A program made the translations under genes and the position numbers. Under the pieces are notes generated by a model. That model was not told the origin of the DNA, searched no databases, and worked only from the letters and a program-made list of their open reading frames with translations. A stretch of DNA of 33,414 nucleotides from Gammaproteobacteria bacterium (GTDB lineage: Bacteria; Pseudomonadota; Gammaproteobacteria; UBA6186; Azoamicaceae): the NCBI GenBank assembly GCA_018061325.1, contig JAGOUJ010000013.1:1-33414 (forward strand). The letters run 5' to 3'. Each line of letters opens with the position of its first letter. Position 1 is the stretch's first letter. Shown piece after piece: positions 1 to 22,247 of the stretch.

Positions 1-776
1 CCGTCGATTAACTTTAGTAAAACCGATGTGCTAATCGGCGCGTAGTCTATTGACTTTTTAAATCTCAAATTAACGATGGGAGCCAAAAATATTTTCAAAA
101 TGGGGTTGACGGGCAATACAGATGCTACATACAAACGCTGAGCGGGCGAGGTGTTGGCAAATAACACAGCACTATTCAGCGTTAATTGTGATTCATTACC
201 ATTCGTAGAAAAAGAGACGCTGGTGTTTGGGGGGGTGATAGTGACGGCCCCCGCTACGGTCGTAGCCGTACTATAGGCATTCAATCCATCACTGGGATGA
301 TCCGTATCAACACCATAAACCCCCGCATTATAGACAACCAAACGACAATCATTGGCGACACAGGTAGCATTGGTTGGGGCTGTGTTAAAAAGACCGATAG
401 TATCAAATTGCGTTGAACCAGACCCTGTAAAGTCCAAAAAAGGATTAGGACTGGTCGCACGATATCGAATGCTTTCTACAACATTCATAAATTCTAGGGC
501 TATACGGTTGGCATTATTGGGATCTTGTTTCACACGAATGCTGTTGGGTAACGCTCTTTGTAAATCAGCTCGCATTCTTTCGAAGGCCATTTCCGCAGAA
601 TCTAACAAATCTGCTCGATGCCTCACATCGCTATAAGCCAGAATAGGATAGGTCATAAACAGTGAAACAACAGCCAACAAAAAACCTGAAAGCGTGATGG
701 TAATCACAAGCTCAATCAAGGTAAAACCCTGAGTTTTTTGCTTTGAATCATCGCCCAAGCTGTTTTTAATCTTCAT
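1..776 (-). CDS. mshO: MshO-like minor pilin, 3' end beyond window
   Basis: The reading frame starts at ATG 774-776 and stays open to the window edge, giving 258 residues without a stop. The N-terminus has a type IV prepilin signal, TQG followed by FTLIELVIT, so cleavage leaves F at +1 and the conserved Glu at +5, then a hydrophobic helix. Its position last after an MshD-like gene, six bases downstream of that stop, matches mshO of MSHA operons. MshO-type proteins are minor pilins thought to sit at the pilus tip or prime assembly at the inner membrane. The C-terminal stretch from about residue 215 is hydrophobic and lacks the Cys-containing tail I expect in this family, so a frameshift or a divergent tail is possible. 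Other type IV minor pilins (PilW or GspJ type) are the alternative identity. Confidence 0.7.
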   Translation of the reverse strand, partial: MKIKNSLGDDSKQKTQGFTLIELVITITLSGFLLAVVSLFMTYPILAYSDVRHRADLLDSAEMAFERMRADLQRALPNSIRVKQDPNNANRIALEFMNVVESIRYRATSPNPFLDFTGSGSTQFDTIGLFNTAPTNATCVANDCRLVVYNAGVYGVDTDHPSDGLNAYSTATTVAGAVTITPPNTSVSFSTNGNESQLTLNSAVLFANTSPAQRLYVASVLPVNPILKIFLAPIVNLRFKKSIDYAPISTSVLLKLID

Positions 777-782
777 AATACC

Positions 783-1232
783 CTAATGATTGGTTTTATA
801 GGCACTCATTTGAATCGTTTGCATACTGCTATGCGATACCGTCACATCCACACGTGCAACCGCGGTAGAACCACTAAAAGATCCCAAACTTTCTGTTGTG
901 TTATCGACATTCACTGTAACGGTATAATCGCTCAGTGCAGCCAGAGAATTACCCTCCTGATCAGTGGGTGACTCGCTGAGACCCTGGTAATGGCAAATAT
1001 TGCTATAATTAGAACGTATTGCAGCAGGACAAGGACTGATTGGAAAATGTCTATTGCCTATTTCCTGCAAATAACTCTCTGCAATCGAAACGGCCTGTTG
1101 CACTAAGAGTGGATCGGAGCTTGATAAGATTACGGTATTGATCGATATTAAAGAACCTAACAAGGCAATCGATAGAATGGCCATGGATATGACCAATTCT
1201 ATTAAACCCACCCCTTGTGATATTTTTTTCAT
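783..1232 (-). CDS. mshD: MshD-like minor pilin
   Basis: A 149-residue prepilin-like protein. The N-terminus MKKISQG precedes VGLIELVIS, so prepilin peptidase would cut after Gly7 and leave Glu at +5; a hydrophobic helix of about 20 residues follows. The rest is a small periplasmic domain with two cysteines (in SPCPA and NICHY) and beta-rich threonine and valine stretches. The start overlaps the stop of the upstream pilin by four bases (ATGA), indicating translational coupling. The order mshC, mshD, mshO is that of MSHA loci. The likely role is a minor pilin that primes or caps the fibre; a PilV or GspI type pilin is the alternative reading. Confidence 0.72.
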   Translation of the reverse strand: MKKISQGVGLIELVISMAILSIALLGSLISINTVILSSSDPLLVQQAVSIAESYLQEIGNRHFPISPCPAAIRSNYSNICHYQGLSESPTDQEGNSLAALSDYTVTVNVDNTTESLGSFSGSTAVARVDVTVSHSSMQTIQMSAYKTNH

Positions 1233-1726
1233 TCGATAAATCCCGTTTCAGGATAAATCGAAAAACTGGATTGATCATCCACCCCTATGCTAATAAGACT
1301 CGTGCCTATTTGACAATCGCTGGCACGCAGGGCCTGACCTAGACGATTAAAATAAATAGGCCATTGACTGGAAAAATTGAGTGTTGTATGACTCGGTGCT
1401 GTTCTTACATAACCCACAAAATTGGTCAACGGATCAACAATATCTGAAAAACTGGTTCCAGTCGTACAACTGGCACCTTCTGTTCTTTGCTGCAAGCCAA
1501 TACTAGTGTCTGTCACAGAAACCTGAATAGAATAACCCGAAGCAACCGCCAATTTTCTCGCATAACGAATCGTATTGACTACTTCATCCTGGTAAAATTT
1601 TTGATTATAGGTAGCAAGCGAAAAAAATAAAGGGGTCGCGACGGCGGCTAAAACACCTAGGACTACCAAAGTGATTGTAGATTCAACCAGCGTAAAACCA
1701 CCCTGTCTTTTTCGCTTTTCTATCAT
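1229..1726 (-). CDS. mshC: MshC-like / GspH-type prepilin
   Basis: Start chosen at ATG 1724-1726, giving 165 residues, because it places a canonical prepilin leader (MIEKRKRQGG before FTLVES) at the N-terminus and lies seven bases after the mshG stop. A longer frame from about 1789 would put 21 unrelated residues in front and overlap mshG. After cleavage the protein has Glu at +5, a hydrophobic helix and a GspH/FimT-like globular domain with a cysteine pair (GASCTT and ASDCQI). In MSHA operons major pilin genes mshB and mshA normally lie between mshG and mshC; here this gene follows mshG directly. It could therefore be a minor pilin or, less likely, the main fibre subunit. Confidence 0.68.
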   Translation of the reverse strand: MIEKRKRQGGFTLVESTITLVVLGVLAAVATPLFFSLATYNQKFYQDEVVNTIRYARKLAVASGYSIQVSVTDTSIGLQQRTEGASCTTGTSFSDIVDPLTNFVGYVRTAPSHTTLNFSSQWPIYFNRLGQALRASDCQIGTSLISIGVDDQSSFSIYPETGFIE

Positions 1727-1733
1727 AGATCTT

Positions 1734-2963
1734 TTAACCCTTATTACCCGTGATTTTCCAAAGATCCCACATAGGCAGAAAAATACCAAGTGCCAGGAGC
1801 AAAACTAATGCGGCGATAAAACTAATGAGTATAGGCTCTATAGCATCGCCTAATTGTTCCACATCGTAATCCACTTCTTCCTCGTAAGCATCTGCGACCT
1901 GATCCAATAGTTTATCGAGCTCTCCCGTTTCTTCACCAATCGATAGCATCTGTAAGATCAAGGGTGTAAATATGCTAATTCTTGTAGCAGCTACCGTAAT
2001 AGACTCTCCTCTTTTAATATATTCACACATGGAAATAACTTTTTCACCCACATAACTGTTATCGGTTGTTTTTGAAATAAGCGCTATCGATTCAAGCAAG
2101 GGGACACCGGTTCTAATAGACAAAGCAAAACTTCTAGCAAATCTAGCCATCAGAGCCAAATGCATTATTTTCCCAACCAAAGGTATTTTTAACTTAAAGC
2201 GATCCCACATTGGACGACCCACAACACTATTCGTAAATTTTAAAAACCCAACAACAACGAACACCATGATAACAACAAGAACATACCAATAGTTCACAAA
2301 AAAATGAGAGGACGCTATTAAAAATTTTGTTGGCAAAGGCAGATCGGTCTTAAACTGGTCAAAAAATTTCGTAAAAGATGGGATTACAAAAATATTCACT
2401 AACGCCACCGCTGCGCCAATCACTATTCCAACAATCATTGGATAACGCAGAGCCGATTTTATTTGCTTGCTTGTTTTTGCATCTCTTGAAAAATGCACCG
2501 ATAGCTGTTTAAATATCTCATCTAATCCACCTGTGCTTTCCCCAACGCTCACCAAACTAATCATCAGCGCTGGAAAAACTTTTGGATGTTGGCGCATACC
2601 CACAGAAAAAGACTGACCAGACTCCATAAAAGCTAAAATATTACTCAGTGCTTCTTTGAGCTTCTGGTTTTTAGCACTTTCCAAAACAACATTCACCGAA
2701 CGCATCATGGGCACACCCGCTTTAATAAGCGTATAAAGCTGCCGACTAAAAAAAGTTAGATCCTGTACAGAAGGCGGACCCTCTGCTAAAAAACTCGTTA
2801 TTTTTTTCAGAAAAGATTTTCTTTTGAGTCTTAATGCTATTGAAATAGGCACAATACCATTTCTCACCAGCTCTAACGCAACTGTTGATTCATTGGGTGC
2901 CGTCACAATGCCTTTGATAGGTTTTCCAACAGAATTTCTACCATGGTATTCAAATTCTGGCAT
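1734..2963 (-). CDS. mshG: MshG, inner-membrane platform protein (GspF/PilC family)
   Basis: A 409-residue member of the GspF/PilC family with the usual two T2SSF repeats, about residues 70-190 and 270-395. The helical cytoplasmic lobes are followed by membrane segments near residues 170-200, 220-245 and 375-400. Typical motifs are visible: FSRQLYTLIKAGVPM, GESTGGLDEIF in the first repeat and FARSFALSIRTGVPLLE with SIGEETGELD in the second. The protein is the inner-membrane platform that couples ATPase motion to pilin extraction and polymerisation. It starts nine bases after the mshE stop, behind an AAGGA ribosome-binding site, and is followed at seven bases by the pilin gene, so the genes are surely co-transcribed. 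Confidence 0.9.
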   Translation of the reverse strand: MPEFEYHGRNSVGKPIKGIVTAPNESTVALELVRNGIVPISIALRLKRKSFLKKITSFLAEGPPSVQDLTFFSRQLYTLIKAGVPMMRSVNVVLESAKNQKLKEALSNILAFMESGQSFSVGMRQHPKVFPALMISLVSVGESTGGLDEIFKQLSVHFSRDAKTSKQIKSALRYPMIVGIVIGAAVALVNIFVIPSFTKFFDQFKTDLPLPTKFLIASSHFFVNYWYVLVVIMVFVVVGFLKFTNSVVGRPMWDRFKLKIPLVGKIMHLALMARFARSFALSIRTGVPLLESIALISKTTDNSYVGEKVISMCEYIKRGESITVAATRISIFTPLILQMLSIGEETGELDKLLDQVADAYEEEVDYDVEQLGDAIEPILISFIAALVLLLALGIFLPMWDLWKITGNKG

Positions 2964-2972
2964 GAATAATCC

Positions 2973-4676
2973 TTAAGAAACTTCTCCAGTTATTTTAAAG
3001 ACTTCAGCTAAAGTCGTGATCCCTTCTGAAGCTTTATCGAAAATAAACTGCGTCAAGGTCTGGTAACCAACTTGTGTCCGTGTTGCTTTAATAAAAGCAT
3101 TGGTATCATTGGTTCTTAAAATATCGGCTAATTCGGGGGTTATTTCTAAGTATTCATAAACGCCGATACGACCCAAATAACCACTTTGATTACAGCGCGA
3201 ACATCCTTTGCCTACTTTAAAAGAAAAAGCACTATATTCCTTGGCCATTAAACCATAAATCCAAGCCTTTTCTTGCTCTGTAGGCATATAAGACGTAATA
3301 CATCCATCACAAATTTTTCTTGCCAATCGCTGGGCTAGAATACCTCTTAAAGCACCTGCTACTAAAAATCCTTCAGCCCCCATATCAATAAGGCGTACCG
3401 CACAACTGGCCGCATCATTGGTATGCAAAGTCGAAAATACCAAATGTCCTGTCATGGCCGATCGCAAACCAATCTTAACGGTCTCCTCGTCACGCATTTC
3501 ACCCACCATAATCACATCGGGATCGTGTCGAAGTGTTGCCCGAAGAACAGCCGCAAAATTTAAATCAATACTATTATTAATCTGCACTTGATTGACCCTA
3601 GGTAAAACGTATTCTACCGGATCTTCAATGGTAATAATTTTTCTATCGGCCGTATTTAACTCGTTGAGCATAGAATACAAACTGGTTGTTTTTCCGCTAC
3701 CTGTGGGTCCTGTAACCAAAATAATACCATTAGGCCGACTGATAAGATTTTTAATTTTTGTGAGCATTGCGTTAGGGAATCCTAATTTATCGAGCTTCAC
3801 AATACCTTTTGATTGATCCATTAAACGAAATACCACAGCCTCTCCAAAATGGACGGGCATAACAGCGGCTCTCACATCAATATTTTTATCTTTCACAGTC
3901 ACCCTAAACCGACCATCTTGTGGCAAGCGTTTTTCTGAAATATTCATCTCGGCCATCAGTTTTATTCTAAGCACCAAGGCCGAGGCAATCTCCTTACCAG
4001 GAATAATGTTTTCATGCAAAATGCCATCTACACGCTGCCTAATGCGCAAGGAGCTCTCATCAGGCTCTATATGAATATCAGAAGCGCGCATTTGAACAGC
4101 ATCTTCAAAAATAGAATCCAAGAGTTTAATCACAGGTGCCGCATTGGCACTAATCGATTTTACTTCTTCTGTTTTATCTTCGCCTTGTTGTATCTCATCT
4201 TTTAGTTCTTTTGCAAAAGAACTAATGTCTTCTGTCTTTCTATAAATGGCGTTAAAAACATGATTAAGATCGCTTTGTAATACGATAGCTGTTTCTACGT
4301 GACTATTAAGTATTTGTGTTAAGGCATCATAAGCTGCCAGATCAGAAGGATCCGCCATACCCACCAAATAACCACTGTCGACGGTATCTAACAAAATCGA
4401 TCCATAGCGTCTCGCTATTTTTTCAGGTAACTTTTGCACGACTTCAGATCTAAAAGAATATTCTCTTAAATCAATAAAAGGTACATTTAATTGTTTCCCT
4501 AGCACTTGTGCAAAATCTAGATCTGTTAAGCAGCCAAGATGCACCAAAACATCACCTAGTTTACCACCTTTTTCTTTTTGTACATTAAGCGCTTCATTTA
4601 ACTGATCCTGCGTAATTTTTCCAGCATCAATCAGCAACTCGCCAATTTTTATTTTTTTCGTTTTACCAAAAATCAT
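2973..4676 (-). CDS. mshE: MshE, pilus extension ATPase with MshEN domain
   Basis: A 567-residue GspE/PilB-family ATPase. Residues 10-62 form an MshEN domain made of two 24-residue motifs (10-33 and 39-62) separated by five residues; in studied homologues this domain binds cyclic di-GMP. Here the first residue of both motifs is Lys rather than the usual Arg. The catalytic core has Walker A GPTGSGKTT (323-331), an Asp box around TIEDPVE (349-355), Walker B at DVIMVGE (387-393), a His box STLHTND, and a zinc-binding tetracysteine (C456, C459, C492, C495). The protein powers pilin polymerisation at the cytoplasmic face together with MshG. The gene starts six bases after the mshN stop with AAGGA upstream. 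Confidence 0.93.
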   Translation of the reverse strand: MIFGKTKKIKIGELLIDAGKITQDQLNEALNVQKEKGGKLGDVLVHLGCLTDLDFAQVLGKQLNVPFIDLREYSFRSEVVQKLPEKIARRYGSILLDTVDSGYLVGMADPSDLAAYDALTQILNSHVETAIVLQSDLNHVFNAIYRKTEDISSFAKELKDEIQQGEDKTEEVKSISANAAPVIKLLDSIFEDAVQMRASDIHIEPDESSLRIRQRVDGILHENIIPGKEIASALVLRIKLMAEMNISEKRLPQDGRFRVTVKDKNIDVRAAVMPVHFGEAVVFRLMDQSKGIVKLDKLGFPNAMLTKIKNLISRPNGIILVTGPTGSGKTTSLYSMLNELNTADRKIITIEDPVEYVLPRVNQVQINNSIDLNFAAVLRATLRHDPDVIMVGEMRDEETVKIGLRSAMTGHLVFSTLHTNDAASCAVRLIDMGAEGFLVAGALRGILAQRLARKICDGCITSYMPTEQEKAWIYGLMAKEYSAFSFKVGKGCSRCNQSGYLGRIGVYEYLEITPELADILRTNDTNAFIKATRTQVGYQTLTQFIFDKASEGITTLAEVFKITGEVS

Positions 4677-4682
4677 CCCATG

Positions 4683-5564
4683 TTATCCTTTCAATGCAAG
4701 CATACGTTCTTTGGCATATTTCACAATATTCGGATCCACACCCATTTTATCGCTCAGACGTTTGTAACCCTCAAGCGCTGATTCTCGTTCTCCTTCGGAC
4801 TCTAAGGCTATACTAAGACCTAACAACCATGCAGGATCATCTGGCTCTTTCTCTAACAAACGAAAATATTGCTGCCTTGCCAAATCATAATGCCCTGTTT
4901 TCTGATAAATATAGCCCAAAAATGAAATATAATGTTTATCCTGTCTTTGATGATTCCTCACCTTCGTTAAAAGTTCCAAAGCTTTTTCAGGTGCCTGCCG
5001 GCGATCGTGTATATAAGCTACCAATCTTAAAAAATCAGGATGGTATTCATCTAGCAACAATCCTTCTAACAATAGATTTTGTGCAAGATCGAGTTTTTTT
5101 TGCTGCAAATAGAGAGTAGCCAATGCCACTCTGGCAGGATGATAATCAAGTCGTTCACTTAAAACGCGTAGAAAAAGAGGCTCTGCCTTAACATCATTCC
5201 CCTTGGCATAGTGATAGAGAGCCCGTTTATAATCCACGTTCATTTCCTCTGCCACGGATAATTGAGCCGGCCTTTTTTCAAAGGTAAAGGCTTTGGGATC
5301 GGTGCTAGTCTTTAGACCAAACGCTGTCGGTGGATTCTGAGAAACTTTAAAACTTTCTAAGGTAGGGGCTAGCACAACGAAGGATTGGGCTTGGCTTTGT
5401 AGCGCTGTATTATGGGCGAGTTCTGAAATGGGCATGGAACCGCTCAGTTCTACAACGCGCTGCGATACCATCCAAGAGAAAGCAGTAGTGGAATAAAGTA
5501 GGGTTATCCCCAATAGCAATGTTTTATTGATAGGCTTGTTTGTTAATATTTTAATGTAATGCAT
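4683..5564 (-). CDS. mshN: MshN-like TPR protein
   Basis: A protein of about 293 residues with an N-terminal hydrophobic segment (about residues 15-32), a linker rich in Ser, Pro and Gln, and tetratricopeptide-type helices from about residue 110 to the end (for example YHPARVALATLYLQQ, LLEGLLLDEYHPDFLRL, AWLLGLSIALESEGERESA). The TPR region and the position between secretin and ATPase match mshN, an accessory factor probably acting in the periplasm on secretin or pilus assembly. ATG 5562-5564 is preferred; a GTG two codons upstream at 5568-5570 is possible. The 5' end overlaps the end of mshL. The AAA ATPase gene mshM, which normally separates mshL and mshN, is absent. Confidence 0.78.
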   Translation of the reverse strand: MHYIKILTNKPINKTLLLGITLLYSTTAFSWMVSQRVVELSGSMPISELAHNTALQSQAQSFVVLAPTLESFKVSQNPPTAFGLKTSTDPKAFTFEKRPAQLSVAEEMNVDYKRALYHYAKGNDVKAEPLFLRVLSERLDYHPARVALATLYLQQKKLDLAQNLLLEGLLLDEYHPDFLRLVAYIHDRRQAPEKALELLTKVRNHQRQDKHYISFLGYIYQKTGHYDLARQQYFRLLEKEPDDPAWLLGLSIALESEGERESALEGYKRLSDKMGVDPNIVKYAKERMLALKG

Positions 5565-7293
5565 TTTCACGCTCTATAATCTCTTCGTTAATATCCTGGA
5601 TCCGACTAAGACTCTTATCCGTTTCACGCGCGGCTGCGCCAGAATCTGCTATAATGGGTCTTATTAAAATAACCACTTCGCTTTTTTGCATACTTTGGGC
5701 TTTTTGACTAAAGAGGCCTCCAATCATCGGTAATTTACCAAGAATCGGAATGCCTTCTTTGATATTCATCGTCTTATTTTGAATAAGCCCGCCAATAATA
5801 ATCATTTCTCCATTGCGTGCTTTAACCATACTATCGGACTCTCGAACGCTGCTTTTTGCTAAAGGCACAGTTGTTGTATCAGTGCCAACCGTATAGCTCT
5901 TTTGTTCATCTGTAACAGAACTAATGGTTGGATGAATATGTAAGGTTATTTCATCATCAGCCGTAATTTGTGGCGTTACATCTAGAGAAACGCCGGAAAA
6001 GAACGGTGTTAAAGTCACATTCGGCGTGACTGTTGCAGGTGCTGAGCCCCCCGACGCTGTGGTTGTGGTTGAAACATTGGTAATAAAATACGAATCATCA
6101 CCTGCTTTAATCAAAGCTTTTTGATTGTTCATGGTGGTCACTCTTGGATTAGATAATACATGCACATCACCCTGAGCCTGTAATAAATCTATAAAAGTAC
6201 TTAAATTTTTATAATTGACTGCCATCGCAACAATACCGCCAAACACAGGCACGCCCCCCCCCCCTGCCAACGAAGTAGTCCCTGTACCCGGTTGCATATT
6301 GATGGAGACCGGAAACCCTTCAGTCGGCACTGGAAAGTTTCCACCTGTGGCACCAATACCGTTTATCACCTCGGAAGAACCCATCTGGGCCGCACTTAAA
6401 CGACCACTGATTAATCCCCAGTTAATACCCGCTTGATAGGCTTCATTTAACTGTACTTCAATAATTTTCGCCTCTAAAATAACCTGTCGATTAAGCGAAA
6501 GTTGAGCCTTTTTTAGAAAGTCTTCGACGCGTCTTAATTCATCCGGCATCGCTTGCACAATGATTAAACTGGATAAAGGACTAATAGCCACTTTACGACC
6601 CTCGGCTGAACCAATAATGGTTTCTACAGCCGTCCTTAATTCTTTCCAAAAATCGCTGGTCGAATTAGTCTTCACCTCGCTACTAGCATCTGCGGCCTCT
6701 GCCGATAGACTGCTGGCTGATACTTGCAAGGAAGACTTACCATTACGACTAATATCCAGATAGTTCACTGGAAAAGCGCGTGTTTGGAGCGTTGCCGGTA
6801 AAATCTCGATACCTTGCGCCGTTTGTCGATAATCAAAGCCATAAACATTCTGAATTGTTTCTAAAATCTGCGGAATCGTTACTTTTTTTAACTGTAAGCT
6901 AATCTTACCCTGTACGAGTGGGTGCACCGTGATATTGTAGTGAGTATCCTCCACCAAACTTAAGAAAAAGGTTTGGGCAGGAACTTGATCAGCTACGATA
7001 TCAAAGCGTTTTTCAAAGAGTGCATCCTTAGTGCCGGCTATGGGCGACAACGTAGCACCTAAGCTTTTCCCCAGATCGCCTGAAAACCCTAAGGGATCAC
7101 CCTGAGTACTGTTTTGTACAGCCTCTATGCTTGGTTTATCGAGCATTTCTTGGGTCTCTGCAGTCATAAACCGTTTCTTTTGGGGCAATTGACACCCCAT
7201 TAATAGCATATTAAAAAGGGCCAAAATACTAAGACAACAAGGGATGATCTTAAAAAACCGATCATCCATGCCATTTTTCCTAAATTTTTTCAT
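5551..7293 (-). CDS. mshL: MshL, outer-membrane secretin lipoprotein
   Basis: A 580-residue secretin. The N-terminus has a lipoprotein signal ending at a lipobox with LMGC (Cys34). An STN-like domain lies at about residues 95-175, followed by N-domain motifs (IIVQAMPDELRRVEDFL, a KH-like N1 fold) and the C-terminal secretin domain (ILEAKIIEVQLNEAYQAGINW through GKLPMIGGLFS and VVILIRPII). It forms the outer-membrane channel for the pilus. Oddity: the codons for residues 344-347 (Gly-Gly-Gly-Gly) are a homopolymer of 11 G on the coding strand, so a one-base slip would truncate the secretin near mid-length. The start overlaps the mshK stop by four bases (ATGA). Confidence 0.93.
   Translation of the reverse strand: MKKFRKNGMDDRFFKIIPCCLSILALFNMLLMGCQLPQKKRFMTAETQEMLDKPSIEAVQNSTQGDPLGFSGDLGKSLGATLSPIAGTKDALFEKRFDIVADQVPAQTFFLSLVEDTHYNITVHPLVQGKISLQLKKVTIPQILETIQNVYGFDYRQTAQGIEILPATLQTRAFPVNYLDISRNGKSSLQVSASSLSAEAADASSEVKTNSTSDFWKELRTAVETIIGSAEGRKVAISPLSSLIIVQAMPDELRRVEDFLKKAQLSLNRQVILEAKIIEVQLNEAYQAGINWGLISGRLSAAQMGSSEVINGIGATGGNFPVPTEGFPVSINMQPGTGTTSLAGGGGVPVFGGIVAMAVNYKNLSTFIDLLQAQGDVHVLSNPRVTTMNNQKALIKAGDDSYFITNVSTTTTASGGSAPATVTPNVTLTPFFSGVSLDVTPQITADDEITLHIHPTISSVTDEQKSYTVGTDTTTVPLAKSSVRESDSMVKARNGEMIIIGGLIQNKTMNIKEGIPILGKLPMIGGLFSQKAQSMQKSEVVILIRPIIADSGAAARETDKSLSRIQDINEEIIERENALH
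6254..6264. repeat. Homopolymer C11 (G11 in mshL sense strand)
   Basis: Eleven consecutive C on the plus strand, read as GGG GGG GGG GG inside the mshL coding sequence. It is by far the longest G/C homopolymer in an otherwise AT-rich operon. Tracts of this length are known slippage sites in phase-variable surface genes, but variation here is inferred, and an assembly error in the tract length is possible. Confidence 0.9.
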
Positions 7294-7667
7294 GAAGATA
7301 CTTCCTTCACCTTCGTATCGAACAAAGTTAATACAGAGTCTTTGTTTTTACCTTCTCTTAAGACCACCTGATAATCCTCAATAGAAATAATTTTTTTAGT
7401 GCCCACCCTATCACCCACTTCCACAATTTTTTGGTTAATCACCGCCACCTTATGGGTGCCCGAAATAATAATTGCTTCCAAACGCATATCCTCAGAATCG
7501 ACCTGCCCCCCTCGGCTGGCTGCCCCCACAAAATCAGAGGGCTTTGTGGGATCTTCTAAAGAAGGTTCTTCGGCTATAACGCCAAAACCCACAAACAGGA
7601 AAAAGAATAAAAAAGCCGATTGAACATATGATCTTTTTGCCTGCTTATACACCAATCCAATCCTCAT
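7290..7667 (-). CDS. mshK: MshK-like pilus assembly protein
   Basis: A 125-residue protein with an N-terminal hydrophobic segment (about residues 17-31) ending near VIAEEPS, then the sequence LEDPTKPSDF, which is typical of MshK/PilP-type proteins, and a small beta-rich domain (LEAIIISGTHKVAVINQKIVEVGDRVG). MshK is a periplasmic partner of the secretin, comparable to PilP or GspC. It overlaps the end of mshJ by 23 bases and the start of mshL by four, so the order mshJ-mshK-mshL is conserved. The start ATG at 7665-7667 lies inside mshJ; a slightly shorter start cannot be ruled out. Confidence 0.8.
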   Translation of the reverse strand: MRIGLVYKQAKRSYVQSAFLFFFLFVGFGVIAEEPSLEDPTKPSDFVGAASRGGQVDSEDMRLEAIIISGTHKVAVINQKIVEVGDRVGTKKIISIEDYQVVLREGKNKDSVLTLFDTKVKEVSS

Positions 7668-8379
7668 CTAAACTTAAAGTATGCATCACTATCTTTATCT
7701 CTGCCTGTGGGTATTTTACAACATCATAATCAATCTCATCCCACACAACACTTAAATGGCGTTTTTCTAAAGACTTTAAAAAATCAAGGGTTTCAAAATA
7801 ACCACCCGACAGTTCAATCGAAAGTCCATGCTCAAAAATACTAAGGTTTCCCTTCTGAGTAGAACGCCCTATCGTGTCATCCTTTTGAAAACTATCATTT
7901 TTCAGGCTATCACTCTGACCATTACCGCTTTGTGTTCCCTCTGTTTTTTTCTGCACCAAAATCTTTTTTCCTAGGCTTTCCATCTTCAATACGATGAGCC
8001 CATCACTTTTCTGTATCACCTGTTCCAAAATACTATTCATGTCTTTAGGTGAAACCATCCTGGCCGTTCTATCATGAATTTTTTTATCTAATTCAGCGCT
8101 TGTTTTTTTGGCACCATCAACCTGCTGACTCAATCCCTGCTTGGGGTTGCTTTTTACAATATCAGAAGCTTCATTTATTTTAAGCTTCGTTTCTTCTATT
8201 TTACTTTTTAAAGCTTTGGATTGTTTGGAAAAATCTTCACGGAACCCCACAAAACTTTGATCGATAATAAAACTCCAAAAAATATACAAAAAAACAACCA
8301 TAGAAAAGCAAAAAAATATCTTTTTGTATAAAGAAAGATTTTCAAATTTTTTTGAGAATCTTATCATAAGTGTATTCAT
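7645..8379 (-). CDS. mshJ: MshJ, PilO-like inner-membrane protein
   Basis: A 244-residue bitopic protein with a short cytoplasmic head, one membrane helix at about residues 20-40, a coiled-coil stretch (about 48-110, rich in Lys, Glu and Ser), and a PilO/GspM-type ferredoxin-like domain in the C-terminal half (LSIELSGGYFETLDFLKSLEKR is diagnostic in style). It pairs with the PilN-like protein encoded just upstream to form the inner-membrane alignment complex that links the cytoplasmic motor to the secretin. It overlaps the PilN-like gene by four bases (ATGA) and mshK by 23 bases. Confidence 0.82.
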   Translation of the reverse strand: MNTLMIRFSKKFENLSLYKKIFFCFSMVVFLYIFWSFIIDQSFVGFREDFSKQSKALKSKIEETKLKINEASDIVKSNPKQGLSQQVDGAKKTSAELDKKIHDRTARMVSPKDMNSILEQVIQKSDGLIVLKMESLGKKILVQKKTEGTQSGNGQSDSLKNDSFQKDDTIGRSTQKGNLSIFEHGLSIELSGGYFETLDFLKSLEKRHLSVVWDEIDYDVVKYPQAEIKIVMHTLSLDEDWIGV

Positions 8380-8975
8380 GACAAGGCCTTTTTTGTTTCA
8401 ACATTAAAAGTAATTTTTTTACTTTTTTCATCCAAAGCCATATTAAACAAAGCAAATGTTTTTCCAGAAAAAGCAGACTCTGAACTTAGACTTGCTATAA
8501 ATTGTGTGACAAGTTCTGGACTTAGGCACTCTCCGCTCAAGAAGAGATAATTTCCACTGTCTTTAATTACAACTTTATTAACCCACAACCCTTGAATCGT
8601 TTTCTTGGCCAGCGATTCAAAATAATTAGAATACCCAATGATTTTTGCGTTGTCAGACGCAGATAAACTCTCAAGCAATGCATTCTTTGATTTGTTTTTA
8701 TCCTCATACAACTTTAATTCCTCTAGAATTTTTTCATTTGCTTTTTGTTGCTCGACCTGACTCATCATGCCATCCAGATCCTTTGTTTGAATGCTTTGTA
8801 TTTTCTCAAGCTTTTCAATATCTATTTTATCCTTCACAAAACCATAAATATTATGAACCGTCATCAAAAATAAAATACCCAAAAAAACCCAAAAGCCAAT
8901 AAGAAACTGCTTGAAGCTAATGCGTTTATCAACTTCTATTTTCTCAACCTTATAAAGGTTTATCTGCTGAATCAT
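8376..8975 (-). CDS. PilN-like protein of the MSHA operon (MshI2-like)
   Basis: A 199-residue protein beginning MIQQINLYKVEKIE, an N-terminus typical of PilN: it carries the short INLY-type motif that docks in the PilM-like ATPase-fold protein. A membrane helix follows (about residues 25-45), then a coiled coil and a small C-terminal domain (FESLAKKTIQGLWVNKV, FLSGECLSPELVTQFIASL). The gene overlaps the end of mshI by 26 bases and the start of mshJ by four. In some MSHA operons the corresponding gene is called mshI2. It works with MshJ in the inner-membrane platform. Confidence 0.8.
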   Translation of the reverse strand: MIQQINLYKVEKIEVDKRISFKQFLIGFWVFLGILFLMTVHNIYGFVKDKIDIEKLEKIQSIQTKDLDGMMSQVEQQKANEKILEELKLYEDKNKSKNALLESLSASDNAKIIGYSNYFESLAKKTIQGLWVNKVVIKDSGNYLFLSGECLSPELVTQFIASLSSESAFSGKTFALFNMALDEKSKKITFNVETKKALS

Positions 8976-9930
8976 TTTTTAAATCCTGATCTTTTAATAG
9001 CGCCCCTATCGCACAAAGACATTCTGTTTTTTCCTCGTCGCTCATAGGTTTTTCTGTTTTTAGATTTTCACACGGATCGAAAATATTTACTTCAAAACCC
9101 AAAGTGTTTTTGATCGACTCTTGTATTAAGGCAATATTTAAGAATGTTGGTGCCAATACAACTGTGTTACTAATATTTTTTCTAAACATACTATTCACAT
9201 AATCAAAGGAACGGTGAATTTCTAGACATAAAGATTCTAAGGACTTGAGTCCTTCTTCCGAAGCTAGATTGTCAAGCGTTAAATCAAAAGAACGTATCAT
9301 ACAAATACTGTTATCTTGACAAAGCATTAAACGACCACCCTGTGCATGCAGTTGAACAAAAGCGCAGCCTGCCGTATATTTCGGATCCAGATTGAGAATA
9401 TTTTTCAAGGCTAATTCTGGAATATCGATATAGGTTAAAACAAGACCCGATGCATGAGTAAAACCTTCAATACTGGCAATTTGAGTCTTTCGCATCACCA
9501 CCGCATAAAGCATATTGAGATTATCTCTGGCTCTTGGAAAAGGTAATTCAAAGGTATCAATCACAGCCTCCTCAATGGGAAAACTTACTAAATCTCTAAT
9601 AAGCCAAGAAACAGCCTGGGATCGTTCTTGGCTCGCAACGGCGGGCGCCTCTACTAAATGCAAACTATATTCTCCAGCTCCAAGCACATACACACAGGCC
9701 ACCCCCTGTAACTGATTGGCCTGTACAAATCTTTGCAAAGCAACCTGCTTGATCCCTGCATCCCCAGAAATAAGGCTTTGAAAAAGCTGCGCCTTAATTA
9801 CAAAATCCTCTCCCTGACCAACTCCATAAGCTATGGATAAACTTTTAGGGGTCTCATAGATACCTACGAGACCCTCTACTGTCTGCTCTAAGGTTTGTTT
9901 TTTTGTTTTTGAACCGAAAGACCAGCGCAT
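8950..9930 (-). CDS. mshI: MshI, PilM-like cytoplasmic actin-fold protein
   Basis: A 326-residue protein beginning MRWSFGSK with the MshI/PilM-like pattern: a GxxxxxxxLSIAYG beta segment (residues about 22-36), WLIRDLVSFPIEEAVIDTFELP (about 108-129) and a helical stretch ending in SFDYVNSMF. It has no membrane segment, so it is the cytoplasmic ring component that binds the PilN-like N-terminus. It is the first gene of the operon, about 190 bases from the divergent L,D-transpeptidase gene. A weak AGG-containing ribosome-binding site precedes ATG 9928-9930. The regulator gene mshH that can precede mshI elsewhere is not here. Confidence 0.82.
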   Translation of the reverse strand: MRWSFGSKTKKQTLEQTVEGLVGIYETPKSLSIAYGVGQGEDFVIKAQLFQSLISGDAGIKQVALQRFVQANQLQGVACVYVLGAGEYSLHLVEAPAVASQERSQAVSWLIRDLVSFPIEEAVIDTFELPFPRARDNLNMLYAVVMRKTQIASIEGFTHASGLVLTYIDIPELALKNILNLDPKYTAGCAFVQLHAQGGRLMLCQDNSICMIRSFDLTLDNLASEEGLKSLESLCLEIHRSFDYVNSMFRKNISNTVVLAPTFLNIALIQESIKNTLGFEVNIFDPCENLKTEKPMSDEEKTECLCAIGALLKDQDLKNDSADKPL

Positions 9931-16859: not shown

Positions 16860-17969
16860 TTAAACCTCATCTGCCAAACGGTAACTGGTACTTCGCCCGC
16901 TGCCAGAATTTTGTATAAAAATGCCTCTTCCCTTTAAAACATGAATATCTCTAAGCGCTGTATCGTTTGAACATTTCGCTAATTTAGCATATTTTGATGT
17001 GTTCATATGCCCTTTAAAATCATCCTCCAACATGCGGTTAATTATGCGGCGTTGTCGCGCATTTACAGGGTTTTGATTAATCTCGTTCCAAAGTTGAGCC
17101 TTAAACATTACCTTGCTCAACGTGTCTTCTGCGCTAGAAACAGCTCGTCCAAGGCAATCTAAAAACCATTCCAACCAACCCGTTATTTCAGGTGTGCTGC
17201 ATTGTTGCCTTTCTAGCTGGTTGTAATAGTCTTTACGCTCAAATTCATATTGAGAGGAAAGACTATAAAAACGATACGCCGTGTTATCCGCACGCGCCAA
17301 TACCATATCAGCAATAGCTCTGGCAATACGGCCATTCCCATCTTCAAAAGGATGAATAGTAACAAACCAAAGATGCGCAATCCCCGCTCTTAGAACGGGA
17401 TCAACATTATCTGGTTCTTCAAACCATGAAAGAAAGGTTGCCATCTCTTTATGAAGTCTATCTGCACTTGGCGCTTCAAAATGAATTGTTTCATGTCCGA
17501 TAGGCCCAGAAACAACCTGCATCGGGCCACTATCATCGTTGCGCCAGCCTCCAACGACAATGGAATGCATTCCGCTACGTCCTGTGGGAAACAAGGCTGC
17601 ATGCCAATCAAACAAACGTTTCTTGCTAAGGGGTTTTGAAAATGACTGTGTGGCATCCAGCATCATTTCCACAATACCCTCAACATTACGGCTGGCGGGT
17701 ATAAGACCAGCGACATTCATTCCTAACCGACGTGCAATCGATGACCGGACTTCATCAGGATTAAGGTTTTCTCCCTCAATAGCTGAAGACTTCACCACGT
17801 CACTGGTCAAAGTACTAAGCAGTGCCTCACGGTTAAGATCGAAGCCTAGACCCTCCATTCTTCCTAGCAAACGACCTTGGCGATGCCGAATATCGGCCAA
17901 CTTGGAGCTTAGTCTCCGGTCATCCCAACTGAAGTTCGGCCAGCCCCTATGTTCGTATATCCACATCAT
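16860..17969 (-). CDS. Fic-domain protein (DUF4172 + Fic + winged helix)
   Basis: A 369-residue protein. Residues about 1-85 match the DUF4172-type N-terminal domain and include the inhibitory motif SSAIEG (61-66, pattern S/TxxxEG/N), so it is a class II, self-inhibited Fic. The catalytic motif HPFEDGNGR is complete at 206-214, predicting AMP transfer to protein hydroxyl groups. The C-terminal 70 residues form a winged-helix-like domain (RRIINRMLEDDF, YAKLAKCSNDTALRDIHVLKGRGIF). ATG 17967-17969 is used; the next codon is also ATG. The start codon lies inside one arm of a 14-bp inverted repeat. It is the only intact gene of the tRNA-Asn islet. The target protein is unknown; such Fic proteins can modify topoisomerases or act as regulators. 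Confidence 0.92.
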   Translation of the reverse strand: MMWIYEHRGWPNFSWDDRRLSSKLADIRHRQGRLLGRMEGLGFDLNREALLSTLTSDVVKSSAIEGENLNPDEVRSSIARRLGMNVAGLIPASRNVEGIVEMMLDATQSFSKPLSKKRLFDWHAALFPTGRSGMHSIVVGGWRNDDSGPMQVVSGPIGHETIHFEAPSADRLHKEMATFLSWFEEPDNVDPVLRAGIAHLWFVTIHPFEDGNGRIARAIADMVLARADNTAYRFYSLSSQYEFERKDYYNQLERQQCSTPEITGWLEWFLDCLGRAVSSAEDTLSKVMFKAQLWNEINQNPVNARQRRIINRMLEDDFKGHMNTSKYAKLAKCSNDTALRDIHVLKGRGIFIQNSGSGRSTSYRLADEV

Positions 17970-18194: not shown

Positions 18195-19373
18195 CTAGCC
18201 CCCCTGATTAGCCTGCAACCGTTCATAGGTCTGCAAGACTTGTACGATATACGCCATCATGTCATCAAAGGTTAAATTATTTTTCGCAAAGTCTGATCCA
18301 TGGATGGCGATGGCTTCTAACTGAGTGTCTGTGTAGGCTTTAACACTGGCTTCTAGCTGATTCACATCATTGGATACGGGAATATAATCTACACCGGGCT
18401 GTAGGGCTGCATAATACCATTGGGTCATGGGTGAGTCTTGCTTAAGCATCACACTGTTTGAAAATAATTGCCAAATAGGTCTGGTCCATGCCGCAGTATG
18501 CCCATCGATGCTTAATAAGCATTTAGCACGCACTTGCATTTCTGGACTTAAAAAATCCTTCTGTTCAACCACAAATTTTGCATCTACAAATTCAGGATGT
18601 TTTTCACCAAAGGCAACCACTTTGGCTCTAAATCCAGAAACATCTGCATAACCCCCACGCCACAGTACTTTGTCTTCTTTACTTTGCCAAGGAAAGACGG
18701 TATTTGCAAACAATACTCGATCCGCTATTTTTGTTATATCCTCTAAGCTCATATAATCTGGGATCAGAATAAATTTCTTTTCTTTGGTTTTGCTTAAATC
18801 TTTAGCCGTGGTTAAAATCGGAGCAGACATAGCCACTTGCCGCTCAGAAGCATTGTGCATAAAATCCGACAATCTGAGTAAAAAACTCAGATCATTCACA
18901 TAACCTTGCTTGGCTATATATCGAAAAATATTGCTGTACATTTTTAAACCCTGTGTGGCCGATCCATTCAATACTGTGTCTTTCTTCTGCGTAACGGTTA
19001 ATTGACCCTTTTCAATCTGAAAGAGAATCACCCAATCGCCTGCTGGAAGGTCATTGTAGGTGGCGATCACATTTTGCTTGGAAACATCATGATAGTTGCT
19101 AAAATCATTGTTGATTTGTATGGGTATCCAAGCCGCTGGATGTGCCAACTTATCATCCAGGTTTTTTTTGGAAATATAGCTTGCTGGCATCGGTTGACCC
19201 AAGAAAATTTGTGAATACTTTGCATACAAATTGTACTTGGGGCTGCTGTAGCGTTTATACATAAAAAGCTTATTGTCTGGGCTAAGCTTCAAAAAAACTG
19301 CCACCATCAACGCCAGGAACAACAGTGTACCCATACTAATACGCAGTCTTTTTATGGCTTTACCTTTTAACAT
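18195..19373 (-). CDS. GT90 (CAP10-type) glycosyltransferase, membrane-anchored
   Basis: A 392-residue protein with an N-terminal membrane anchor (about residues 11-29) and a GT90/CAP10 catalytic region from about residue 195. Recognisable family segments are IPDYMS, PWQSKEDKVLWRGGYAD, KCLLSIDGHTAAWTRPIWQLFSNSVMLKQDS, QWYYAALQPGVDYIPVSNDVNQLEASV and SDFAKNNLT. GT90 enzymes (fungal CAP10, animal POGLUT, bacterial LPS-modifying relatives) transfer xylose or glucose to proteins or glycans. The anchor suggests action on envelope glycans. It stands alone, transcribed away from a small LuxR-type regulator, with a GGGGGAAG ribosome-binding site. The substrate is unknown. Confidence 0.82.
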   Translation of the reverse strand: MLKGKAIKRLRISMGTLLFLALMVAVFLKLSPDNKLFMYKRYSSPKYNLYAKYSQIFLGQPMPASYISKKNLDDKLAHPAAWIPIQINNDFSNYHDVSKQNVIATYNDLPAGDWVILFQIEKGQLTVTQKKDTVLNGSATQGLKMYSNIFRYIAKQGYVNDLSFLLRLSDFMHNASERQVAMSAPILTTAKDLSKTKEKKFILIPDYMSLEDITKIADRVLFANTVFPWQSKEDKVLWRGGYADVSGFRAKVVAFGEKHPEFVDAKFVVEQKDFLSPEMQVRAKCLLSIDGHTAAWTRPIWQLFSNSVMLKQDSPMTQWYYAALQPGVDYIPVSNDVNQLEASVKAYTDTQLEAIAIHGSDFAKNNLTFDDMMAYIVQVLQTYERLQANQGG

Positions 19374-19570: not shown

Positions 19571-19876
19571 ATGCAGCTAAAACCAAGGGATTTGCCTGAG
19601 CCATTGTTTAATGTTCGTTTCGATTGGGAGCCCATTATGCTCGCCATACGAACAGAAACCCACCAAAGACTCACACGCCGAGAAATAGAATGTCTGCGCT
19701 TTTGGCTCAATGGTTTTTCGATTAAAGAAACGGCCCGATCACTCGATGGCATATCGATCAGAACCGTACAAACCTTTAGAGAAAACATTAAACGCAAACT
19801 ACAGGTGAAAACCTATCAACAATTGTTTCAATCTATTCAAGCCTGTGGTCTTATGCGGTTTTTTTTACAATCATAA
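19571..19876 (+). CDS. Minimal LuxR-type HTH protein
   Basis: A 101-residue protein that consists almost only of a LuxR/GerE-type DNA-binding domain (about residues 34-88): LTRREIECLRFWLNGFSIKETA, then RTVQTFRENIKRKLQVKT. There is no receiver or autoinducer-binding domain; about 30 N-terminal residues of unrecognised sequence precede the HTH. Such HTH-only proteins act as transcription regulators, often dimerising through the last helix. It is divergent from the GT90 gene, with a 197-bp shared intergenic region, and its last six bases overlap the convergent galU end. Targets are unknown; the adjacent GT90 or galU genes are candidates only by position. Confidence 0.82.
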   Translation: MQLKPRDLPEPLFNVRFDWEPIMLAIRTETHQRLTRREIECLRFWLNGFSIKETARSLDGISIRTVQTFRENIKRKLQVKTYQQLFQSIQACGLMRFFLQS

Positions 19877-20761
19877 GCTTTTTTTTAAGAAAGCTTCAAA
19901 AGCCTTCCCTAAGGCTGGATGTTTAAGACCATAGTGCACAATAGCCTGCAAGTACCCTAATTGACTGCCACAATCATAGCGCGTACCTTGCACTAGGTTT
20001 GCATACACTGTCTCCGTTGCAAGTAGTTTATCAATCGCATCGGTTAATTGAATTTCTGCATCAACGCCTTTTTGTAGATCTTCAAGCGCTGCAAAAAGGC
20101 TAGGATTAAAAATATAACGCCCCACAACACCCAAATGAGAAGGCTCCAAACCCAAGGCTGGCTTTTCAACTATTTTATTGATCACACCATATTTTTCGAA
20201 ATTTTCAGCAAAACGCACAACGCCATAATGACACAGTTCCTGAACAGGCATTTTTTGCACCGCTACAACACTGCGACGCACCTCTTTAAAAACGGCTAGC
20301 ATTTGGGATAAACAAGATGATTCCGTGTTTTCGATCAGATCATCGGCCAACAGTACAGCGAAAGGCTCTGAACCCACAACCGACTTTGCACATAGAATGG
20401 CATGGCCTAATCCTAAAGGCTCTGCTTGCCGAATATAAATACAGCGTACGCCCTCGGGTAAAATATTACGAACCAAGTCTAAAAGCGCTGTTTTTTCAGC
20501 TTTTTCAAGCCTGTATTCCAATTCGAAATTTTTATCAAAATGATCTTCAATCGCACGTTTGGTACCACTGGTTACAAAAATAAGCTCTTGGATCCCAATG
20601 GAAACGGCTTCTTCAACCGCATACTGTATTAAAGGTTTATCAACAATAGGCATCATTTCCTTAGGACTGGCCTTCGTAGCAGGCAGAAAACGCGTCCCGA
20701 TGCCGGCCACAGGAAAAACAGCTTTGCGAATCAATCCAGGTGTATGCTGAAACAGGGTCAT
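19871..20761 (-). CDS. galU: UTP-glucose-1-phosphate uridylyltransferase
   Basis: A 296-residue cytoplasmic nucleotidyltransferase producing UDP-glucose for LPS, exopolysaccharide and glycolipid synthesis. The nucleotide-binding motif is near the N-terminus (FPVAGIGTRFLPATKASPKEM, about residues 16-36), followed by PIVDKPLIQYAVEEA. Later signatures are FAVLLADDLI, IVEKP, VGRYIFNP and EIQLTDAI. Length is normal. It starts three bases after lapB stops, so it is the last gene of the long minus-strand block. Confidence 0.95.
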   Translation of the reverse strand: MTLFQHTPGLIRKAVFPVAGIGTRFLPATKASPKEMMPIVDKPLIQYAVEEAVSIGIQELIFVTSGTKRAIEDHFDKNFELEYRLEKAEKTALLDLVRNILPEGVRCIYIRQAEPLGLGHAILCAKSVVGSEPFAVLLADDLIENTESSCLSQMLAVFKEVRRSVVAVQKMPVQELCHYGVVRFAENFEKYGVINKIVEKPALGLEPSHLGVVGRYIFNPSLFAALEDLQKGVDAEIQLTDAIDKLLATETVYANLVQGTRYDCGSQLGYLQAIVHYGLKHPALGKAFEAFLKKSL

Positions 20762-20764
20762 AGC

Positions 20765-21871
20765 TTATTCATCCATAGGTTTTATAACATCCCAACGCTT
20801 ACAGCTAGGACATTGCCACTGCAAGGTTCTACCCGAAAAGCCACAGGCTTCACATTGATACAAAGGTTTATCAACCAACATTTTCTTTACCAACACCTGA
20901 AACAGTTCGAGATCAGGCTGCGAGGGATCCCCCTCGGCTATTTGCGTCCATTGCATTAAACGATGTAGACCACCCAGCGAAGGATGCTTTTGTAGATGTT
21001 GCACTAAAAAAGCCTTTGCTGCATCAACCCCTTTGCGTTGATAAATCCATTCAGATAAAACTAACACCGCTACAGTACTCATACGCTTTTGTAGATGATG
21101 CTCACAATAGTGGATCATGCCTTCTGGATCTTCTAAGGCATCATAACATCGCGCTAAAGGCAGCACTATTTCTGCAAGAAAGGGTTGGTCTTGGTCATAA
21201 ATAGTCTGATAAATCTGGATAGCCTGTTCAAAATGTCCGGCTTGCGCTTCAATATTAGCCCACAACAGTCCAGCTCTCACACAACGTACATTCACCCCTA
21301 AGGCTGTCTTAATATGCTGGATCGCTTCACCACGCTCACCCTTCAACCATTGCTGCTCTGCAAGCTCACAATGATAATGTGCAATATGATAACGCATATC
21401 ACGATTGGTTTTGGCTTGCCATTGCTCAGCGGTTTGAATGGCACGCACCCAATCTTTACTTTGTTGATACACATCCAGCAGCAAGGAGAAAACAGCATTG
21501 AGATCATGCGCTTGCTCACTCAAATCCAACAGCAAAACTTCTGCTCTATCCAACATGCCTGCACGCATATAATCGCGGCTTAATTCCAATAAAGAAAGCG
21601 CACGTTGCTCGGCCGTTAGCGAGTTTTGATCGGCCAATTGTTGGTGAATGCCTACTGCTTTATCCAGTTCGCCACGGCGCCTAAAGAGACCACCTAAGGC
21701 TAGATGGGTTTCAACATCTTGCTTCATTTCGCTACGCTGATAAAGCGAAGGAGGATTCGTTTCAAGATGAAAAACTTTACGTAGCGTCTCTAAGGTAAAA
21801 AGCCGACGACCCAATAACCAACCTGAATAGGCCGCCAAGGGTAACAGTAAAAAAAAAACAGCGCTCATCAT
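20765..21871 (-). CDS. lapB: LapB (YciM), LPS assembly regulator
   Basis: A 368-residue protein with an N-terminal membrane helix (about residues 3-20), a series of TPR helices (about 50-320) and a C-terminal rubredoxin-like metal site (C340, C343, C354, C357). LapB acts at the cytoplasmic face of the inner membrane and directs FtsH to degrade LpxC, limiting LPS synthesis. It overlaps lapA by four bases (ATGA). Oddity: codons 5-8 contain a run of ten T on the coding strand, so slippage there would end translation almost at once. Confidence 0.94.
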   Translation of the reverse strand: MMSAVFFLLLPLAAYSGWLLGRRLFTLETLRKVFHLETNPPSLYQRSEMKQDVETHLALGGLFRRRGELDKAVGIHQQLADQNSLTAEQRALSLLELSRDYMRAGMLDRAEVLLLDLSEQAHDLNAVFSLLLDVYQQSKDWVRAIQTAEQWQAKTNRDMRYHIAHYHCELAEQQWLKGERGEAIQHIKTALGVNVRCVRAGLLWANIEAQAGHFEQAIQIYQTIYDQDQPFLAEIVLPLARCYDALEDPEGMIHYCEHHLQKRMSTVAVLVLSEWIYQRKGVDAAKAFLVQHLQKHPSLGGLHRLMQWTQIAEGDPSQPDLELFQVLVKKMLVDKPLYQCEACGFSGRTLQWQCPSCKRWDVIKPMDE

Positions 21872-22119
21872 GGCGCTTGATGTCTTTGATAATAAGACTT
21901 TTCTATCTTAAGCCTAATAATGGTGGGTAGCGCTGCCAACCATCCAATCACCAAGCCTAATACTAAAGCGCCCAACACCAGCATAGATAAAGGCATTGTC
22001 TTCGTACCAGCATAATAATGCACTTGTACGAGGTCGGAATTAGACAAGGCAAAACCCAATCCAAATACGACCGCAAAAAGGACCAGCACTATCGCCATGA
22101 AATGATTCAATAAGCGCAT
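21868..22119 (-). CDS. lapA: LapA (YciS), small inner-membrane LPS assembly protein
   Basis: Start set at ATG 22117-22119 (83 residues) because a strong AAGGAGG site lies seven bases before it. An upstream in-frame extension would be encoded by a repeat element and is rejected. Two membrane helices are predicted (about residues 4-24 and 43-65) with the LapA pattern FALSNSDLVQVHYY between them and a basic cytoplasmic tail (IIRLKIEKSYYQRH). It partners LapB in LPS quality control. In most gammaproteobacteria ihfB lies between rpsA and lapA; it is absent here. Confidence 0.88.
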   Translation of the reverse strand: MRLLNHFMAIVLVLFAVVFGLGFALSNSDLVQVHYYAGTKTMPLSMLVLGALVLGLVIGWLAALPTIIRLKIEKSYYQRHQAP

Positions 22120-22153
22120 CACTAATCCTCCTTGCACTAGCAGTCTGTCCAAA

Positions 22154-22247
22154 AAGTTTTTCCGAATGGCACTCGGGGGCATACATCCCTGTATTCGACG
22201 ATTAACCATCCCTGGAATCGACGCCCCTCGCACACTCGGAAAAACTT
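22154..22247. repeat. 94-bp inverted-repeat element between rpsA and lapA
   Basis: Perfect 12-bp terminal inverted repeats AAGTTTTTCCGA (22154-22165) and TCGGAAAAACTT (22236-22247). Inside are two direct copies of a 17-mer, CATCCCTGTATTCGACG (22184-22200) and CATCCCTGGAATCGACG (22207-22223), differing at two positions. The structure resembles a small non-autonomous element (MITE or REP-like). No target duplication is obvious. It lies within 20 bp of the rpsA stop and could also fold in the rpsA-lapA transcript. Confidence 0.65.

Follow-up and report, generated by a model that had tools for sequence, protein, structure and literature searches.

Does a run of 11 G within the gene of a pilus secretin act as an on/off switch, or is it a homopolymer that grew by chance? 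The run lies in mshL, in a window (the whole stretch of DNA analysed, 33,414 nucleotides) from the 1.28-Mb draft genome of a gammaproteobacterium, which is 96.7% complete in 67 contigs. Its position and the residues that it encodes coincide exactly with those of the original prediction, which had proposed a possible phase-variable pilus.

The secretin gene and its operon

The pilus genes of the window include the following features:

5551-7293, minus strand: mshL, secretin of the MSHA-type pilus, 580 aa with the frame intact (TIGR02519, PF00263, PF07655)
6254-6264, minus strand: 11-G homopolymer tract, Gly344-Gly347 (sequence, run count, translation)
4683-5570, minus strand: downstream gene for a TPR protein, in the MshN position, with a GTG start overlapping the end of mshL by 20 nt (ORFs, domain search)
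2973-4676, minus strand: mshE-like extension ATPase with the MshE N-terminal c-di-GMP-binding motif (NF053729, PF05157; domain and family search)
1734-2963, minus strand: mshG-like inner-membrane platform protein (T2SSF; domain search)
3-1789, minus strand: three prepilin-like genes, at 3-776, 783-1232 and 1229-1789 (N_methyl matches)
7290-9930, minus strand: upstream assembly genes, at 7290-7667, 7645-8379, 8376-8975 (PilN-like) and 8950-9930 (PilM-like) (weak PilN and PilM matches; order kept in congeners)

The name MshL, already given to the protein from its sequence, is upheld by a TIGR02519 (equivalog) score of 267 bits, above the curated cut-off of 250.2, and by Pfam matches to the N-terminal secretin domain (PF07655, residues 171-239) and the Secretin domain (PF00263, residues 371-549). 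No second PF00263 match was found in the draft genome. As in other MSHA type IV pilus systems, mshL stands alongside genes for an MshE-type ATPase, a platform protein and prepilins, and each of the five congeners shows the same operon order over the part covered by its contigs. The N-terminal motif of the ATPase suggests that c-di-GMP may control the pilus even in a small genome.

On the coding strand of mshL the tract forms codons 344-347, GGG GGG GGG GGC, directly preceded by GCA; the forward strand reads 11 C. It is the longest G/C run of the whole window, where the next longest measures 7, and of the genome, where a whole-genome pattern search gave a runner-up of 9. The operon had been described as AT-rich, which holds only mildly, mshL having a GC content of 42% and the sampled genome 44%. 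Both mutS and mutL are present (MutS and MutL domains were found), and judged on gene content the genome is not deficient in mismatch repair; loss of this function as a source of tract instability was thus ruled out.

The tract length was read from a single assembly of the species. A scan of contigs for strains of the same species in collections with one genome per species gave matches only to distant relatives (35-41% identity). Homopolymers are a frequent site of sequence length errors, and in a draft of 67 contigs the assembled length could be wrong, or could be the consensus of variable reads, so that 11 would not be the real or the only length. However, 11 belongs to the only length class that keeps the 580-residue frame open into the conserved Secretin domain, and a random error would usually break the frame, which makes an assembly artefact very unlikely.

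Changes of tract length and precedents for switching

The effect of a length change was followed in silico. Tracts of 10 and 12 G give products of 363 and 361 aa, and tracts of 9 and 13 G products of 360 and 364 aa, whereas 8 and 14 G preserve the frame. All out-of-frame products end N-terminal of the Secretin domain, so that a one-base slip deletes the pore domain, as had been foreseen:

6201-6203, minus strand: out-of-frame TAA closing the 10-G product (in-silico length change, sequence)
6209-6211, minus strand: out-of-frame TAA closing the 12-G product (in-silico length change, sequence)
5647-6183, minus strand: Secretin domain (PF00263), residues 371-549, lost at every frameshifted length (Pfam and in-silico length change)

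It is plausible that a frameshift in mshL would also be polar on the downstream TPR gene, because the start of the latter overlaps the mshL stop.

It can be proposed from these properties that the tract is a contingency locus, in which slipped-strand mispairing at G11 toggles MshL and the whole pilus and in which the tract is retained by selection for switching. That such tracts switch genes in other bacteria, as the original prediction stated for surface structures, has precedents. Genes of Campylobacter are switched by G tracts of 8 or more (PMC6321876), and in Neisseria meningitidis most homopolymers of at least 8 are variable (PMC5084427). In Vibrio cholerae the poly-G tract of tcpH frameshifts at about 1e-4 (PMC5854121), and motility of Helicobacter pylori is switched by a short homopolymer within the flagellar structural gene fliP (cited in PMC11898584).

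With 11 G, the tract in mshL exceeds the threshold of at least 8 established in the first two of these systems. It resembles the poly-G/C contingency loci of the PhasomeIt catalogue (PMC6321876) in being an in-frame G run of more than 8, in a surface-structure gene, where a one-base change truncates the product; its place 5' of the pore domain is that expected of a switch. Moreover, the longest G run of the genome falls in the gene of its sole secretin. The likeness to fliP and tcpH is that a gene for a surface organelle, structural or regulatory, carries a homopolymer at which a slip gives a null; in those genes, however, variation was shown experimentally, whereas here the tract was read from one assembly. 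Furthermore, the catalogued loci differ from the present case, which has no genome-wide excess of tracts, no conservation and no family of tract-bearing surface genes.

The tract thus has two features of a contingency locus, its length and its effect on the frame, and lacks two usual ones, excess over chance and conservation. Further points against a selected switch are the presence of mutS and mutL and the literature searched, in which no report ties mshL to phase variation through a tract: the searches returned no such switch for an MshL or PilQ secretin, and PMC9490421, the one paper found to mention both 'mshL' and 'phase variation', has no tract linking them. Overall, we regard retention by selection for switching as rather unlikely. 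That the secretin is phase-variable is likewise rather unlikely; in that case one slip at G11 would shut down the type IV pilus altogether, along with whatever else crosses the sole secretin of this small-genome gammaproteobacterium. Should length variation exist, the pilus of a reduced-genome bacterium would be turned on or off as a whole by a simple mechanism acting on its pore in the outer membrane.

Long G runs in the genome and its relatives

The spectrum of runs was obtained from whole-genome pattern searches and from 395 kb of sampled stretches. In the latter, the number of G/C runs drops about 0.24-fold with each added base (fits 0.22-0.25). The whole genome has 15, 5, 0 and 1 runs of exactly 8, 9, 10 and 11, respectively, which fits this geometric decay: extrapolation gives 4.7 runs of at least 9, against 6 seen, and 0.27 runs of at least 11, against 1 seen (P about 0.24). 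Long tracts above chance in the genome, a usual but not obligatory mark of contingency loci, were therefore not found. The tract had been called unlikely by chance. This is true of mshL alone (0.0004 runs of at least 11 expected) or of the window alone (0.007), but not of the genome. The smaller expectations are apt only for a gene picked beforehand; since the whole genome was effectively scanned, the value of 0.27 applies.

The count was extended to 21 genomes: this one, five congeners, five of the same family and ten of the same class. Together they hold 90 runs of at least 9, 19 of at least 10 and 5 of at least 11; the decay is unchanged and long tracts are not in excess. A run of 11 or more occurs in 5 of the 21 genomes. 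It follows that a striking long G run, even in a surface gene, should be viewed with caution: chance alone yields one in about every four genomes of such composition, so that population data are needed before such runs are called switches.

The genes in which the other long runs lie point the same way. Three of the five 9-G runs of the genome are outside any ORF of at least 80 aa and two are within ORFs, one at the 3' end of what is presumably a farnesyl-diphosphate synthase gene and the other within a gene for a Sel1-type repeat protein. In the congeners, runs of at least 9 are found in ORFs whose translations we take to be a YbeY-type protein, a pseudouridine synthase, an M20 peptidase, a TolA-like and a patatin-like protein. 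Where they are not outside large ORFs, such runs lie in what we read as housekeeping genes, among them genes for isoprenoid synthesis, maturation of rRNA, pseudouridine formation and peptidases, and no bias towards pilus or surface genes was seen in this genome or in the congeners. This differs from Campylobacter, where poly-G tracts exceed chance (PMC6321876).

Two minor points concern the genus. A genus-wide system of G-tract switches was considered and ruled out, long runs being located in unrelated genes. One congener (L062:1947-1966, or G001:C20:21946-21965) has a 20-G run with A14 and G6 runs next to it. The surrounding sequence is AT-rich and of low complexity, and may be an assembly artefact or belong to a foreign contig.

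Each of the five congeners has an MshL homologue, and so do further genomes of the family and the class. Conservation of the tract across related species, again usual but not obligatory for a contingency locus, is not observed: none of the 32 other mshL homologues has a G run longer than 7 in the gene or longer than 6 in the loop that corresponds to the tract region, and in the operon loci of the five congeners every G run is shorter than 8. Inheritance of the tract within the genus was thus ruled out. At the tract site the nearest homologue (G002, 71-74% identical) has TCG GGT GGA AGC in place of GCA GGG GGG GGG GGC, and in the remaining four the site encodes Ala, Ser, Asn, Thr or a single Gly. 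Other Gly codons in close relatives were what the original prediction had itself named as evidence against switching; other codons are indeed found in all five congeners, GGT GGA being those of the nearest. Absence from other species would still be compatible with a switch in this one, as even within the genus Campylobacter variable genes commonly have homologues that do not vary (PMC6321876).

The loop that holds the tract is the least conserved part of MshL:

6241-6396, minus strand: fast-evolving, length-variable Gly/Ser/Thr-rich loop holding the tract, residues 300-351 (identity, alignment, weak structure model)

Compared with the congeners, residues 300-350 are 18-57% identical, against 56-86% elsewhere in the conserved protein. 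The values are 57% against 77-86% for the closest relative and 18-22% against 56-78% for the other four. The length of the loop also differs among the aligned homologues. An AlphaFold2 model, itself weak (4-row alignment, mean pLDDT 51.5), gives residues 300-351 a pLDDT below 50, which lends mild support to a loop that is unstructured.

The four glycines could have been selected as a structural feature of this loop, a flexible hinge or the tip of a gate, the G run merely encoding them; the loop is indeed rich in Gly, Ser and Thr here and in the closest relative. However, the alignment shows Gly4 to be kept in no homologue. In addition, mixed codons would be expected if glycine alone mattered: the other Gly codons of mshL are mostly GGT and GGC, and three consecutive GGG have a probability of about 0.004. 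Selection for the glycines appears very unlikely.

The explanation that we favour, with a probability of roughly 0.74, is that the tract is a chance, lineage-specific homopolymer, grown neutrally in an indel-tolerant loop, prone to slippage and without sign of selected switching. The tract would have arisen in a single lineage through substitutions, probably together with in-frame slippage, within a disordered Gly/Ser/Thr-rich segment of MshL tolerating changes of both sequence and length. We infer all three of the neutral origin, the disorder of the loop and the actual rate of slippage. At its present length of 11 the tract leaves the frame open, which would correspond to a pilus in the 'on' state. 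By analogy, the site is probably an indel hotspot in the present species as well, because tracts of at least 8 are unstable in Campylobacter and N. meningitidis and the tcpH poly-G tract frameshifts in V. cholerae; G11 would occasionally yield secretin-null, and hence pilus-null, cells able to revert. With runs of this length expected in roughly one of four genomes, and with this one missing from close relatives, the tract looks like an ordinary site of frequent mutation and not like a switch shaped by evolution. The phase-variable pilus originally suggested is accordingly left without support by the chance-like run spectrum, the lack of surface bias among long runs and the other codons of the five congeners. 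Among MshL proteins of MSHA pili, a G11 run in the variable loop distinguishes this one from all 32 homologues examined.

Other features of the window

A second homopolymer is found at 21849-21858, where ten A on the forward strand (T10 on the coding strand) lie among the initial codons of a lapB-like gene (20765-21871, minus strand), which adjoins a lapA-like gene (21868-22233, minus strand). A pattern of homopolymers located at the 5' ends of genes has been reported (PMC2831843). At 16860-17969 (minus strand) the window encodes a Fic/DOC family protein with an N-terminal DUF4172 domain. A glycosyltransferase family 90 protein (PF05686) is encoded at 18195-19373 (minus strand), near a nucleotidyl transferase gene (19871-20761) and the lapAB-like genes, and this region is perhaps a surface-glycan locus.
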